Assembly (NCBI GenBank): GCA_027603945.1
Contig: JADIIU010000030.1
Coordinates: 1-64,000 of the forward strand
Length of the DNA: 64,000 bases
Direction: 5' to 3'
Origin: Terramyces sp. JEL0728
Taxonomy: Eukaryota > Chytridiomycota > Chytridiomycetes > Rhizophydiales > Terramycetaceae
Positions 11,184 through 48,600 of the stretch are shown piece by piece; the stretch's first letter is position 1, and each line of letters opens with the position of its first letter. Position numbers and translations under genes: made by a program. Under the pieces are notes generated by a model that saw only the letters and a program-made list of their open reading frames with translations, did no database searches and had not been told where the DNA came from.

Positions 11184-14100
11184 TTATTGTTTTTGTTGAT
11201 GTTTTTGAGCAGCTGCAACAATCGTATTCAAAGTTGCCCGTTGTGCTGTGCTGAGACGGCCGTCCAAGACACTACCTTGTCCGGTTTGCTGCAAGTGATT
11301 CATTGTGAGAGCAAATCTAACGTACACGTCAATAGAATCTAATGGTGTAATGAAATAAATATCTTCTTGCATGAATTCTTCTACATCCCACTCTTCGTCA
11401 TCACTAAAGTCTTCGTTCGGTTGTGCTTCTGCTGCATCGTTTGCCAAAGATTCTAATGTATCTTGTTCTTGGTCATCAAATTCCCCTTGTTCTTCAAAGT
11501 CATCATTTTCATAGTCTTCGTATTCTTCATGTTCGCCTTCCATTGATTCACGATCTACATTAGTTAAAATTACATTCTAGTGCGCCTTGATATGTTTGGA
11601 ATATCTTTAGAATGCCATCAAATAAATGCGTCCACATGTTTGAAAGCGATCCCAGCTGGTTTTGCGGTAATTCCAATAGCGTACAAAGGGCAAGGATCGA
11701 AAGTTTCTTGTCATGCACTCTATGGAAATGGTCAATATTCTTGAACCAGATCTCGCAAAATGCGCTAGTCCAGTTAATGTGTTCTAACAGACCAAGAGCC
11801 ATTGTTGGGTTATAGTAAAATGCATTCAATACTACTTCAATGCAATGAACTCTTAATGCGACAGTCTTTACTTTCTTTTTTAGTAGATTGTAAGCTTGCT
11901 CGACAAACTGAGGCACAAACTAATATTAACAATGTGTACTGAATCAATTAGCCCTCTAAGATTGTGCAGCATAGTTTCCATCAGCTGGATTGCTCTAATT
12001 TTATCTGCTTCTCTTCCTAGATTGTCGTTCATGATTGTCATGATCATTTCAAACAACTGATTTTGTAATGTTGGGTTTGAAGCAATAACATCTTTACCAT
12101 ATGAAATATAGTTATCAAGAGATGGTGACATTTCTTCAAGGTATTCCAGTGCGTCTTGTTTGAATGTGTTGACAATGTAAGGGAACAAACTCCACATTAC
12201 TGGCGACACTTGTTTGGAACAGAACAAGGAAGTTTCAATGATTTCAAATAATTCTTCATATAGATCTAGAATTGAATTTTCAAGGATAAATTTGAGCGCT
12301 GGTTCAATAACGATTTCAATTTCTAGAATGATTGCTGGAGAAGAATCAACCGCAAGAATAAGAGATGCAATGGTCTTCAATACACCCATGGCAGCCATCG
12401 TTTTATCTTCTGCATCTTCAATATCGAAATCATCAGAGGAGAAATTGCCTTCAGACATGATCCGCATAAAAGTATCTTTTAATTGTGAGGATAGTTGGGT
12501 AGCATATGGCTTCAATTCTTCAGAGAATTCAAACACCAGTAATTCCATAGAGTGTGTAAGAGTATCCAGGTCAATTTCATTCGTGGTGTTTAGTAATCCC
12601 TGCATCACTTGAACTACGTGGGGCTTCATTGCATTCACTACTTGAGGATATTTCAGGAATGGTCCAAGTGCCAAAGATGAGCTTACTCTGACTGGAAGTT
12701 GGGCGTCGTTCATGCAATTCAAGATATTTGTAAATGCAAATTGGAGGTTGTTTTCATCCTTGTAAGTAATACCAGAGAATTGGTGGATAACATCACACGC
12801 CTTTGCTCTAAGGAACGCATGTGGAGAAGTCAGATCTGGGAACACGTGGGATACCAAGAATTGCTCCATTTGCTCCTTGATGGGAGATTTCTACATTAGT
12901 TTCTGCTTACATCTGATATTGCCATATCAGCCAATTGTGCCATTATGTTCAACGCACCATACTTTTGATTCGGATTGAACTGCTGGCTGAGCGAACTCAA
13001 GATATTGTTGACCATAGTGACAATTGGAATAAAGGTTTGGCTAAACCTTGACTTTACCAATGAAACCAGCAGCTCTTCGGCAGCAGTTACTGGGGATCTG
13101 AAATCATCAATTGGGGGATCTACTTTTTTATGCTATTGTTAGTCTGTTTGCTTTGGAGTAAATGTCCTGAGATTACTTACAATATATTCAACTGGATCTT
13201 CATCCCACAATTCTTGATCTTGTTCAGTAAAGCACAATAATGGGAAAATGAATTTAACCAGCAATTCCAGCTTTTCAAGGATCATTGGCCAGATAGGTTT
13301 CAATCCGATACAGTGTCCAATAAATGAAAGCTGCAACTGGATGGTTCTTGGCGACGAGAAGGAAGTCAATTCGAATTGTTGAAAGTAGACTGTAAGGATT
13401 TTTGGCACGAAATGCTCAACAAACATCTTGGAAAATTGCGTGTATTTCTTGTCTCCCTTTCTTCGTCCGTATTTGCCTATATTAGTAATGCTTACCCATC
13501 AATGTATTCAGGCAACCGAAAGCCCATTTCTTTAATTTCCAGAAAACGTGTTTCTCGTCAGTTTCGTTGGATTTTTTTTGGACGACATTCATAAACAAGG
13601 TACACCAAGGTACCAGTGAATCCATTGATTGTAGGATGGGTGATAAATCCATTCTGATGGAGCAGTTGTAAGTCTTGATTATAGTCTTGAGCATCAATAG
13701 CGATTCCTCATTGTCGATTTGTTCCAACTTTTGTCCGATTGTCAATAAAATTGGAAATAGCGATTGGATGATTGCGTATAAATTTGCTCTCTTTCCCGCT
13801 TGTGTCCACTGCAGTGTTTTTACCTATTGATTAGCAAATATATACCAACTCCAGCAAGACTGCCAGCCCGGTGTAAAGCAAATTTGTATTTTGGCTTTGC
13901 AACAACTGCACAATCGCTTGGTTCAACTCTGGCCACGAATTTTGAGAATTTTCGCTGCTGATAATCAGATGAATTGAATTCAACAGCAGCTGCTTCTTGG
14001 TCCCGGTAGTTTGGGCAATCGCTTGAATAATGTGCTGCTTGACCCACAGTTTTTCTTCATTAGTGATTTGGTTCTGGCTTGAAGTCCAGCCATTTCTTAC

Positions 14101-14461: not shown

Positions 14462-15338
14462 ATGGCGGGAAGAGGAGCAGGATACGACAGGTAAGTCAAT
14501 AGTAACAAGACACATTACAGTATTTTCACCAGAAGGTAGATTGTATCAAGTTGAATATGCCTTCAAGGCAATCACAAACGCAGGTATAACCTCAGTCGGT
14601 GTTCGTGGAAAAGATTGTGCAGTAGTAATTACCCAGCGTAAAGTCCCTGATAAATTATTGGATCCAAGCACCATTACAAATATCTACCCACTTACTTCAA
14701 AGATTGGATGTGTCATGACTGGGTTGGTACCCGACGGAAGATCTCAGGTAATTATCTTTTGATCCTAGGTATAAGGCATTAATCATAGGTATAAGGCATT
14801 AATCATAGGTATAAGGCATTAATCATAGGTTCAAAGAGCGCAAGGCGAAGCCGCAGAATGGCGGTACAAATACGGATATGATATTCCAACAGATATGCTT
14901 GCGAAAAGAGTCGCAAATATCAACCAAGTCTACACGCAACAAGCTGCAATGAGACCTGCTGGTGTATCAATGATCTTGATAGGATACGACGACGAATACG
15001 GCCCGCAATTATTCAAATGTGATCCTGCAGGGTAAACATTGGATTAACAAGATATTATATGGGCTACAAAGCAACAACAGCTGGAGCAAAACATCAGGAA
15101 GCGTTGAATCACTTGGAAAAGAAACTAAAAAAAGAGCCAGAGTTGAATCAAGAAGATACAATCGAAGTAATTTTTGCTAATGTAGTTGGCCATAATGACC
15201 CTTTCGAACGTTTTATCAATGGATTTCAAACCAAAGGATTTGGAGATTGGCATTGTCACCAAGGATGAAAGATTCAAAAAGATGACTGAGAATGAAATTG
15301 AAGCTCACTTGACAAGAATTATCGAACGAAGTGATTAA
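14462..15338 (+). CDS. PSMA6: 20S proteasome subunit alpha1 (PSMA6/Scl1)
   Basis: Exons 14462-14490, 14510-14747, 14829-15031, 15052-15166 and 15186-15338 total 738 nt, giving 245 aa; the human protein is 246 aa. The start [15 protein letters not shown] and the motifs [50 protein letters not shown] and [12 protein letters not shown] identify alpha1. It forms part of the alpha ring gating the 20S core. Introns are 19, 81, 20 and 19 nt; the 81-nt one is an array of four micro-introns. The first coding exon is only 29 nt. The gene shares a short divergent promoter region with the importin gene. Confidence 0.96.
14748..14828 (+). repeat. Four-unit tandem micro-intron array (three identical 20-mers) in PSMA6
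   Basis: The segment between SRSQ and VQRAQGEA splits exactly into 14748-14768 (21 nt, GTAATTATC...GATCCTAG) and three identical copies of GTATAAGGCATTAATCATAG at 14769-14788, 14789-14808 and 14809-14828. Every unit has its own GT, a TTAAT branch-like motif (in the three copies) and AG. All junctions are AG|GT. The total of 81 nt must be removed, since the first unit contains an in-frame stop. Confidence 0.9.
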
Positions 15339-44182: not shown

Positions 44183-45453
44183 ATGTCCGAGGAAGAGCCA
44201 ATCTGCTCAATCTGCCTAGAGTCTGTGAGAATCAAACTATCTCTGAATAATGTTGGATAAGCTAATATAGGTGACTACTGCTAACACAGGTACCTTGATA
44301 TTGATCCAGGTTTGTATTACAACCACCTGTGAGCATTATTTTCACACGCAATGGTAAGGTCCACAATAATGCAGCTTGAACAAGAATATGCAGCACAGCA
44401 AAAAGTGTCCAAATTGCAGATCGAATTTAGGAAAGATTATTCAGCTGCCGGATGAGTTTTTCACGGAATTAACAGTAAAAGAAATACAGATACCAGCAAC
44501 CAAGGAGATCCAAGATGGTTTGGGATCCGAAGCCGTAATGCGATTACACAGGTAATATTTATATTGATCTCTGGTTATTGTGCATTTATTTAGGTATACC
44601 TCGCTAACAAAGGTATTTTTTAGCTCATAAAGGGATTTGATTGAAAGACAGAAGCAAGTAGAGGAGCTGGAGTTAGAACTAGAGGATGCCAGGTGTCAAA
44701 TTGAGGATATTCAAGACTCAGCGAATGATTTAAATGAAATTGAAGTGGATGAGTTGCAGGCACAGTTATTTACCATGAATAGGAAGCTGGACAATGAAGA
44801 ACAAAAGAATATATTCCTCCACTCCAATTGCCAGCGTATTTTTTTGCTGATCCAGGATTGGAACACACAATAGAATCCTTGCTGGTAGAAAGGGATAAAC
44901 TACTAATAGAAAGCAACAAAAGCAAGGATACAAGTCAGGAAAACGCTCTGTTGAAAGCCCAGCTAAAGCAAGCGTCAAATAATTTGAAGCTGACAGAAAA
45001 CAAACTGAAAGCCTTTTGCGGGATGAATTCAATTACTTTGGAGACAAACAATGTCGACTATGACCACCTATCGCAGGAAGAACTGAAGCAGCTGATAATT
45101 TTTAAATGCCAAAAACTTTTAAAAGAAACAAACGAAAAGGAGATGTTTAAAGAAAAGTTCTTGAAGCTAAAGCAAAGCATGGAATCTTTAAAAAAAGAGC
45201 ATGATACGAAAATACACAAAATAAAGACGTTGCAGGAAATTCCTTCTGTAACGTCTGTGCAAAACGCTTGCACTGACCCAGTGGCAATCAAGAGTGATAA
45301 GGAAATTAATTTTTCGATCTGTGCTCCAGGATCTGTAAAAGAACAATAATCTAGAAAAATACAAAGAGGAAATTCGAGAAATTTGTAGAAAAGAAAGAGT
45401 TAAAGAAAGCTGTGAAAACTGCAGTACCAACGAAAGCTTGGTTCAACCGATAA
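44183..45453 (+). CDS. RING-finger coiled-coil protein, TRAIP-like E3 ligase
   Basis: 356 aa. The RING runs CSICLESV...TTCEHYFHTQC...HSKKCPNCRSNLGK, assembled only after splicing; its second His-x2-Cys is split by a 21-nt intron (44354-44374). It is followed by long coiled coils (ERQKQVEELELELEDARC..., LLKAQLKQASNNLKL...) and a basic C-terminus ending AWFNR, reached through a 20-nt intron at 45335-45354. N-terminal RING plus coiled coil is the layout of TRAIP, a ubiquitin ligase acting at stalled replisomes; other RING-coiled-coil proteins are possible. Two of its five introns are multi-unit arrays. Confidence 0.75.
44252..44309 (+). repeat. Three-unit micro-intron array in the RING gene
   Basis: Three complete but unrelated units lie head to tail: GTTGGATAAGCTAATATAG (44252-44270), GTGACTACTGCTAACACAG (44271-44289) and GTACCTTGATATTGATCCAG (44290-44309). 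They separate codons for LSLNN and VCITTTC of the RING domain. All junctions are AG|GT; two of the units carry CTAAT/CTAAC. Confidence 0.85.
44552..44632 (+). repeat. Four-unit micro-intron array in the RING gene
   Basis: Units 44552-44573 (22 nt, ends CTG), 44574-44593 (GTTATTGTGCATTTATTTAG), 44594-44612 (GTATACCTCGCTAACAAAG) and 44613-44632 (GTATTTTTTAGCTCATAAAG) lie between MRLHR and DLIERQ. The first unit ends in TG rather than AG, so the first boundary is less certain. Confidence 0.75.
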
Positions 45454-45611: not shown

Positions 45612-48600
45612 ATGCGAAGCGAAAGCAAATTGAATAGGAGCATAGAGGACGGAGTCGATCATCCGGAAAACCCAATTATCGATTCGCTCGACAAGTCAGC
45701 TCCAGAAGTTGTTATGGCGACAATTGCAAAGCAAAATTTCATTTTAAACTTGTTCCAGAGCAAAAATGTTACTCCCTATTCGGATATCAGACAGATTTAC
45801 AGCCTACAAAGAAAGAATGAAAGGTGGGTTGTTGCTGATTTAGAAACGAACTTTCAAACGCTGTATTTACCGCTCGGTTGAGAGTGTATATTGTCGAAAC
45901 ATTATCTAAATTGAAAAAAATACGAGAAATTGTGATTAAAAACAGATGGATGTTGGTAAGCAACTTTTTATTGTAGTCAATCACGGCATTGGTGGTGGAT
46001 TTTGTTTTCACGATATTTTACATGTCGGAAATTGAGGACAATGCCGAGAGGCCGTGCAATTCAGCAGATATAGAGCCATGCGGAACTACTGGATTGCCTT
46101 TTTGGATGCTTATGCGTAGACCGCCGGCGACTTTTCACGTAATGGTCGGGCTTTCGGTTATTCAATTACTGGTTTTGGTATTGAACTGTGCCTTTATAGT
46201 GGATAGCGCTAAGGTTTACCTCACATCTCCATTGACGCTGTTGGACTTGGCTATCATTGTACCGTTCATTGCTTTATCTCGATATCCTGGATCAAGATTT
46301 ATCTGTAACTGCATCTGACGTTAGATATACCATACTTTTTAAGAATATTTTTACTAGTTCCAAATCTCAAGTCGGTATTAAGATTAAGGAAACAGTGGTC
46401 TCCTGTAAATTTCAGTGATTACAAGGAGAAATTGATTATTTTACTGGCATACATTTGGGTATTGCTTTATTTTGGGGTTTGCTTTGGATTAACTTAGGTA
46501 TTCAAATTCTAACATAGGCGTGTTCATTCAATTATTTTGAAACTAAATTGCCCGAGAGTATAAATTTACAAAACCAGCTGACTAGTAAGACTGGACAAAA
46601 TGGAAGTCAATTACTTGGGGTTGTAGAAACGTTTTACTTTATGGTTATTACCATGTCCACTGTTGGTTATGGCGATATTGTTCCAAAGACAATTCCTGGG
46701 CAACTTGTAGTCATACTTCTCATTTTTGCTGGTATCACTCTTTTGCCCGGCCTCGCTTCTGATTTGACCGAAACTATCAAGATACAGTCGTCTGGTGTTG
46801 GGCATTACACCAGAGGAAAGAGTCCGTTTTTAGTTATTTGTGGGAATTTGGTGGAAACAAATAGAATTGTTGAAATGATAAAAGAAGTGCTAAGAAAGGT
46901 AATATTTACTCATAGCTAGGATCCCAAAAAGACTATGAAAATTGTGCTTTTGTCTAGGTCGCCGGTTTCCGAAGAATTAAAGTACCATTTGAACCACTAC
47001 TCCTTGAAGCAAAGAGTCACCTTCCTTCAGGGTAGCGGGCTGGAAAACTCTGATTTTGAAAGAGTGCAGCTACACCATGCCCAAGCATCCTATATTTTAG
47101 CAAGTAAATTGGATTTTATCCTAGGCACTACTGCTGAAAACCACAGAATTGAAGACGAACACAACACTCTTCGTGCGTGGGCATTTGATAAGTTTGCACC
47201 TGATACGCCTATCTACCTTGAAACAATACTGCCGCAAACGGCATACTTACAAGAGGATTTGGCAAGCGGAAGTAACTCATATTAATGTAGTTGTGTGCAT
47301 TGACGAATTTAAGCAGATTTTCTTGGCGTACAATTGCATTTATCGCGGGATTGGGACTTTAATGATAAATTTACTGCGAGGCACAAAGAATTATACTCAC
47401 TTTGGTATTCCGTGGCAAGTGCAGTATGCAGATGTAAGGAGAGTTAATTGTAGGGGGCTCAAAATGAAATATTCAAGATCCAACTAAACCCACTGTTTAT
47501 TGGACGATCATTTTCGACGGTTTCGCTATACCTCTACAGACAATTCCAGGTAATTACATTCGGTATTCATTATTACATCCCACAGAATGAAATTCACCAC
47601 GTCGCCCTAAACCCTGGTACAAGATACAACTTGAAAAAAGGAGATTGTCTCTATGTTATTGCAAACTCCCGAGCAATGCTGCAAGAAATTGCTGATTTAA
47701 CTGAAGATCAATTTGACCGAACAAGGGATACTGTCAGCCTAAGTCTCCGTTCATACAACCATAAAACACATTTATCAAGAGACACATTGAATGTAAAGGA
47801 CGAATACAATTCACGGTATGTTGTTGGATACCCGCCGCAAACTCACAACTCGAAAGTGCCGCTATGCTGGCTGCTCCCATCACTTGTTCAGGAGCTGCAG
47901 GAAGTCTTACTGCAAAATGCTGAAAACTTGAAATCGCACATATTGGTTTGTACTAATGATTACCATATATTCAGATTTATCGCTACTCTGAGATCTTCCC
48001 AAATCAGAAGTGAAGATCTTAAACCAATCCTTGTCATGTGCCCCAAAATTCCGACAGCGCAAGAGTTCCAAAGGTTCCACTGTTTCCCACAGGTTTACTT
48101 TATCCGCGGGGAAGCGCACAAAGCTCTTCATCTTAGGAGAGCGGGATTATTCCATGCTTACAGAGTGGTATTGACCAATTTATCCAACCATGTACACCAA
48201 CGAGATGTAGCTGCGCAAGATGGGGTCGATGGATTAGCCGATAGCTCTACAATCATGGTTTCAAATTTGATTTACAAAATGTGTGAAAACGAAGGAATTC
48301 GAACACCTGCTGTTGTAGAATTGCGCAAGCGGTCAAATATTAAATTCCTGAGCCCGGGAAGCGTCCATTTTGCTCCCAAGCAGAGGAGAAGGATCATGGG
48401 TAAAGCTGATGATAACGGACCAAACGATGACATTCATTACTCTCCAATGTTTGTCACTGGAAGTGCTGTTTCACCGATTATGCTGGAATCAATTTTATCC
48501 TCTACATACCACCAACCATCAATTTTGAACGTTTTTAATGTTCTTTGCGGAGTGAGATACAAAGTATTTCTTGTTTAACGTTAGGTTGATAGTGAAATTG

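Follow-up and report, generated by a model that had tools for sequence, protein, structure and literature searches.

Results

The window, by which we mean the whole stretch of 64,000 nucleotides analysed here, carries on its plus strand a gene for a proteasome alpha subunit of the PSMA6 type, whose five exons are separated by three single introns and by an 81-nt interruption between exons 2 and 3 (Table 1). The spliced exons encode a protein of 245 amino acids with the Pfam domains PF00227 and PF10584. This protein matched the PDB PSMA6 chains with 353 bits and aligned without gaps at the 81-nt array and at the three single introns (19, 20 and 19 nt), the gapless junction being seen in the two PSMA6 chains with alignments shown. 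Two of the three single introns had low model scores. The closest database protein was P0001 (Proteasome subunit alpha type-6, Terramyces sp. JEL0728, a soil chytrid whose family, the Terramycetaceae, is placed in the Rhizophydiales), which agrees with the present splice model at the array junction and which, as itself a prediction, is no proof of splicing. P0001 is without ten residues adjoining the 19-nt intron at 14491-14509; these residues are present, one substitution apart, in the aligned PSMA6 chains. To judge from the DNA, the annotation of P0001 probably used a 49-nt intron (14491-14539) instead of the 19-nt one. Introns of this kind may escape standard annotation, as the loss of ten conserved residues at this place suggests.

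Table 1. Positions of the PSMA6 gene, its array and the other features considered. Positions without a contig name are those of the window.
Feature	Position	Strand	Remarks
PSMA6 exon 1	14462..14490	+	splice model and alignment to PSMA6 chains
Single intron, 19 nt	14491..14509	+	residues 3' of the intron absent from annotated P0001
PSMA6 exon 2	14510..14747	+	ends ...AGATCTCAG, phase 0
Array unit 1, 21 nt	14748..14768	+	GTAATTATCTTTTGATCCTAG; branch TTGAT; unrelated to units 2-4
Array unit 2, 20 nt	14769..14788	+	GTATAAGGCATTAATCATAG; branch TTAAT
Array unit 3, 20 nt	14789..14808	+	identical to unit 2, GTATAAGGCATTAATCATAG
Array unit 4, 20 nt	14809..14828	+	identical to unit 2, GTATAAGGCATTAATCATAG
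PSMA6 exon 3	14829..15031	+	splice model and alignment to PSMA6 chains
Single intron, 20 nt	15032..15051	+	splice model and alignment
PSMA6 exon 4	15052..15166	+	splice model and alignment
Single intron, 19 nt	15167..15185	+	splice model and alignment
PSMA6 exon 5 with stop codon	15186..15338	+	
KCNT-like K-channel pair, unit 1, 21 nt	46477..46497	+	weak donor, 8th percentile of single introns
KCNT-like K-channel pair, unit 2, 20 nt	46498..46517	+	not a copy of unit 1
48-nt intron, importin-7-like gene	13133-13180	-	
Predicted 81-nt intron	44552-44632	+	splits into 22+20+19+20 nt; first piece ends CTG, not AG
Sampled array	C30:96760-96799		
Sampled array (L010)	C2		
SPX gene, 5 units (19, 20, 20, 20, 20 nt)	C67		at codon 56; gapless against two SPX structures
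USP7-like gene, 4 units (21, 20, 20, 20 nt)	C29		inside a Trp codon of the MATH domain, gapless there
CBS-domain gene, 4 units (22, 22, 19, 20 nt)	C28		Pfam CBS match spans the array
TFB1/p62-like gene, 4 units (20, 21, 20, 19 nt)	C1		gapless but weak
Array of 7 units (L035:506-645)	C128:22705-22844		5 identical 20-mers, GTAAAACAAGACTAACTCAG; gene model and protein continuity uncertain
Formin gene (L044, L040, L045)	C106:23950-27250		FH3, FH1 and FH2
Polyproline gene (L046)	C17:67350-67950		
U2 snRNA gene (L048)	C70:14443-14635		

The original prediction had described the 81 nt as 21 + 20 + 20 + 20 nt, with the last three units identical and with a donor, a branch motif and an acceptor in every unit. 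Both the letters and the coordinates proved right when positions 14748-14828 of the window were re-read, and the three 20-mers are identical. GT and AG bound all four units (4/4), which are complete from donor through branch to acceptor; the branch motif assigned by the model (TTGAT or TTAAT) is yURAY-like in each, and its A is the seventh nucleotide counted back from the end of the intron. As had been proposed, the units are joined without an exon between them: at all three junctions acceptor and donor are juxtaposed as an exact AG|GT. The repeated tract consists of 3 × 20 nt with AG|GT at each border, next to the 21 nt of unit 1. Tandem Repeats Finder reported it with a period of 20 and a score of 131, the second highest among the 18 rows for the window. 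With as many as 3 mismatches allowed, the 20-mer GTATAAGGCATTAATCATAG had 3 matches in the window, compared with 0.01 expected in shuffles; in the 15.0-Mb assembly it occurs exactly three times, always in the PSMA6 array, and at five other places, all with 3 mismatches. The shuffle expectation and the genome-wide match counts rule out a chance repeat.

As 81 is divisible by 3, we also considered a coding repeat. This was ruled out: all 15 non-empty combinations of retained units run into a stop after 90 or 93 codons (codon 91 or 94), and PSMA6 of family length therefore requires removal of the entire 81 nt. The claim that all four units are removed is supported by this result and by the spliced protein, which aligns to PSMA6 without a gap where exons 2 and 3 meet. 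Judged from the DNA and the conserved protein, the 81 nt are almost certainly an array of intron units, all of which are removed.

The intron population of the genome was characterised with a semi-Markov gene finder that we wrote for this analysis, trained on long open reading frames and iterated. It was run on 324 kb (the window, the continuation of contig C30 as far as 124 kb, and 10 kb from the start of each of contigs C1-C20), a sample that is not random and in which contig starts are over-represented. Genes of fewer than 60 codons and overlapping genes on opposite strands are left out by the finder; loci L001-L003, copies of the window locus, were left out of the script counts, and loci L035-L047, picked for pattern matches, do not contribute to the introns counted. 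The finder predicted 198 genes and 407 introns, 403 of which measure 19-23 nt (111 of 19 nt, 203 of 20, 67 of 21, 20 of 22 and 2 of 23). The four longer ones have 48, 81, 143 and 145 nt, and the latter two look like misjoined exons. On a smaller first set, made up of the window, the initial 10 kb of each of C1-C20 and another five short loci, 360 introns were predicted with GT..AG ends, as against 39-104, of scattered lengths, for six decoy dinucleotide pairs on identical sequences. The consensus in this genome is a donor GTA followed mostly by A, T, T, a branch yTAAY and then mostly YAG, and the branch A is most commonly the sixth or seventh nucleotide counted back from the end. Four predicted introns of a ribonucleotide reductase gene (20, 20, 21 and 22 nt) lie in gapless stretches of its alignment with the large subunit of this enzyme, 3hnc (1390 bits). 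Extrapolated from the non-random 324-kb sample, the genome would contain about 19,000 introns.

A U2 snRNA gene was found above the cut-off, with 140 bits; it carries GTAGTA, which we take to be the branch-recognition sequence. The search for a U1 snRNA gene gave no match in the assembly and none in 14 control genomes either. Two long introns of the window are listed in Table 1. The one of 48 nt, rare in its length for this genome, falls where the alignment with importin 7 (6n88) runs without gaps, and the predicted 81-nt intron at 44552-44632 is possibly a partly decayed array, to judge by its pieces.

Zero-exon arrays are found at other loci as well. The 324-kb sample holds four arrays with six zero-length junctions, namely PSMA6, the KCNT-like gene and the arrays on C30 and C2; among its 283 internal exons, six are of length zero and two of 1-13 nt. 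Genome-wide, four patterns of the form branch, AG|GTA, branch, AG gave 19+21+18+24 = 82 matches, compared with 2+1+3+1 = 7 for the reversed patterns used as controls. Merging by hand reduced the 82 matches to 73 places, in which at least six look-alike pairs are counted separately (C4, C18, C26, C44 and C86 twice each; C30 and C33). The members of these pairs have nearly the same sequence, like duplicated segments, and the C26 pair (L041, L042), the sole pair read in both copies, keeps two intron pairs in each. Two further patterns, in which the spacer could take any length from 0 to 30 nt, had 90 matches (12 when reversed), all rows being kept in the tally: the spacer was zero in 21, was a GT..AG unit of 19-23 nt in 5 and measured 1-30 nt in 64, including 8 of 3 nt. 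With a recall of 0.36 for the four patterns, which recover 36% of random intron pairs, (82-7)/0.36 gives a rough figure of 200 zero-exon junctions in the genome. Fifteen pattern places lay in sequence that was read; the first unit was 18-24 nt long with a score of at least 1.5 in 12 and not in the other 3, the fifteen including loci fetched for looking like multi-unit arrays. Selection for the inner sites cannot be demonstrated with these tandem patterns, which by design pick out intact junctions.

Six arrays have homology or domain support (PSMA6, SPX, MATH, CBS, p62-like and K channel). Their 23 units of 19-22 nt tile them completely, five of the six having been found by patterns or a finder that favour intact units. 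Alignments with solved structures are free of gaps at the arrays of SPX, MATH, the K channel and, weakly supported, the p62-like gene. The p62-like gene had a PDB E value of 0.52, and its Pfam score of 25.7 bits fell below the cut-off of 27.1; in the K-channel protein gaps occur on either side of the junction, at a distance of some residues. By model score, the eight distinct array units of the 324-kb sample (median 4.35) resembled the 393 single introns (4.80; p = 0.60), and one of the eight, in the K-channel pair, was weak. The PSMA6 array is thus not unique: predicted zero-exon arrays, composed mostly of unrelated units in the loci read, recur in this genome.

Identical units, as in the arrays of PSMA6 and C128, point to recent tandem duplication, and for units 2-4 of PSMA6 we regard this origin as very probable from their sequence. 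Two recent tandem duplications of 20 bp, presumably by a slippage-like process and with a copy number that would be neutral, very probably produced units 2-4 beside the unrelated unit 1. To the original prediction the array looked like recent duplication of an intron as a unit within itself; recent duplication is supported for units 2-4, but unit 1, of 21 nt, is no copy of the others. The array is accordingly one unrelated intron next to a triplicated one.

In the heterogeneous arrays the mean edit distance was 7.7 for 21 adjacent pairs and 8.0 for 643 pairs between arrays (p = 0.40), pairs of identical units being left out of the comparison. As non-identical neighbours resemble each other no more than units drawn from separate arrays do, they stem either from old duplications or from independent gains; shared ancestry of the unrelated units, considered as a candidate, found no backing, with no residual similarity by edit distance. 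The unrelated units may instead be ready-made introns that were inserted repeatedly at AG|GT, by an introner-like process or a reverse-splicing gain, with only the identical units duplicated. In favour of such insertion, adjacent units are no closer to each other than to those of other arrays, the edge of an intron with its AG|GT is similar to a proto-splice site, and intron pairs at distances 4 and 5 exceed those in all six simulated sets. However, no clear excess of near-identical introns was seen among 401 distinct introns (1, 33 and 220 pairs at distances 1, 2 and 3; 1-5, 14-49 and 160-253 in the six simulated sets), and old duplications would look alike after divergence. We consider repeated insertion an alternative for the unrelated units that is less likely than not. 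A true introner or intron family was rejected, with no close copies of GTATAAGGCATTAATCATAG and no clear excess of near-identical introns in the 324-kb sample.

Introns separated by very short exons were predicted in a formin gene with FH3 (112.3 bits), FH1 and FH2 (317.9 bits), which has 43 predicted introns in 3.3 kb. In its FH1 part, exons of 3 nt (ACC, each adding a single proline codon) follow one another in runs, alternating with introns of 20-23 nt. Between neighbouring introns across a 3- or 6-nt exon the edit distance was 2 in two pairs and 6-9 in the other 22; distances of 4 or less occurred in 2/24 of these pairs and in 12/861 other pairs. As general proof of duplication the formin neighbours were thus discarded, being weakly supportive. 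Another polyproline gene, on C17, likewise has exons of 3 and 6 nt between introns of 20-22 nt.

How the 81 nt would be removed was considered separately. Since the array units look normal in length, signals and score, each donor would be expected to pair with the acceptor about 20 nt downstream. Every such excision would recreate an AG|GT, and the mRNA obtained in the end would not differ, so the units could be removed in any order. In the gene model, four units scored -3.8 and a single 81-nt intron -5.8 natural-log units, with zero-length exons free of cost; an earlier round of training, which set no bounds to the lengths it learned, apparently called the array one 81-nt intron, as that round listed two 81-nt introns and the PSMA6 array was absent from its chains. 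The score advantage of four units is modest and depends on the modelling of length. Taking length, signals and score together, we think that removal proceeds mainly unit by unit, and hold this to be reasonably likely.

Each of the AG|GT junctions could be used both as an acceptor and as a donor, and human polyubiquitin uses repeated AGGT sites stochastically (PMC10809524). Excision of single units might therefore be mixed at random with excision of several at once, as at such dual-specific sites, always with the same mRNA as the result. The narrow distribution of intron lengths suggests instead that pairing over about 20 nt dominates, and we regard a stochastic mixture as rather unlikely. Removal in one step from the first donor to the last acceptor, or in two larger pieces, with the inner sites as mere bystanders of a minisatellite, is less likely again. 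It would fit the scores of the donors (2.77 for the outer one, -0.61 for the inner ones), the imperfect division of the predicted 81-nt intron at 44552-44632 into units and the apparent preference of the earlier training round; moreover, the homology-supported 48-nt intron in the same window indicates that longer introns can be spliced here, which makes one-step removal possible. Against it, only 4/407 predicted introns exceed 23 nt, two of them with the look of misjoined exons, and units of 19-22 nt tile all six supported arrays completely, even if 5/6 were found by methods favouring intact units. That the copy number is an artefact of assembly, as three identical 20-mers in PSMA6 might raise, is highly improbable, because the other arrays read, save that on C128, have differing units for which no collapse or expansion is expected, and because tracts of 60-81 nt are shorter than common read lengths.

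The DNA itself shows the unit structure, the identity of the last three units and the recurrence of arrays, as well as that the conserved protein contains nothing of the 81 nt. For the locus as a whole we put the probability at roughly 0.7 that the 81 nt are four consecutive U2-type micro-introns with zero-length exons between them, probably removed unit by unit and with units 2-4 duplicated.

Discussion

Ultra-short introns are described, in the portions of the literature cited here, for chlorarachniophyte nucleomorphs (18-21 nt), mikrocytids (16-17 nt) and heterotrich ciliates (15-16 nt) (PMC10245619, PMC4035089, PMC9505925). The introns of the present genome share with these the narrow range of lengths at the lower end of known introns. 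They differ in that the host is a fungus, and back-to-back arrays are not mentioned in those portions. Among the open-access matches listed, represented by titles and the beginnings of abstracts, there was no report of fungal introns of about 20 nt, nor one of arrays of whole introns without an exon between them, which does not prove that none exists.

Several known systems resemble the PSMA6 array in part, as far as the excerpts of their descriptions go. Fungal stwintrons, or spliceosomal twin introns, contain more than one U2 intron in an intervening sequence, excised consecutively (PMC7138796, PMC12403724), and the PSMA6 intervening sequence likewise holds more than one. In stwintrons, however, the internal intron splits the donor, branch or acceptor of the external one, whereas the PSMA6 units abut at AG|GT. 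The units here, unlike those of stwintrons, are of about 20 nt and stand up to five in a row with protein support, or seven in the uncertain gene on C128. We rejected the stwintron for PSMA6, as there is no split element and complete signals flank all three AG|GT junctions. The ratchet points of Drosophila juxtapose an acceptor and a donor like zero-nucleotide exons; most of them are located within long introns, and they depend on a cryptic RS-exon (PMC8605326). The juxtaposed AG|GT is common to them and to the three junctions in PSMA6, but the whole PSMA6 array fits into 81 nt and involves no long intron. At the dual-specific sites of UBC the repeat unit contains AGGT and the excised length is a multiple of the unit (PMC10809524, likewise in part). 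An AGGT in the repeat and a tract that is a multiple of the unit are features of PSMA6 too; the unit is coding in UBC and exactly one intron in PSMA6. Introners, finally, are a route of intron multiplication (PMC9860276) and copy to other sites, while GTATAAGGCATTAATCATAG has no other genomic match under 3 mismatches; the text searched mentions neither chytrid, Rhizophydiales or Terramyces nor tandem or nested. As far as we have found, the zero-exon intron array would be an undescribed arrangement of spliceosomal introns.

We tentatively propose, as an explanation that may well need revision, that introns in this genome have shrunk to the size of a slippage unit, so that a whole intron, alone or with one codon, could multiply like a minisatellite repeat, while the spliceosome would peel off units of about 20 nt one by one. 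The outcome would be zero-exon trains, as in PSMA6, on C128 and, diverged, at many other places, together with runs of single-codon exons as in the FH1 part of the formin gene. The number of units could drift freely, since full removal yields one and the same mRNA whatever that number is.

If this is true, it could be tested in one culturable organism whether the spliceosome removes consecutive introns without an exon between them, that is, whether true zero-nucleotide exons exist, and whether introns, once short enough, multiply by small tandem duplication. A fungus would also be added to the short list of lineages whose introns measure about 20 nt or less.
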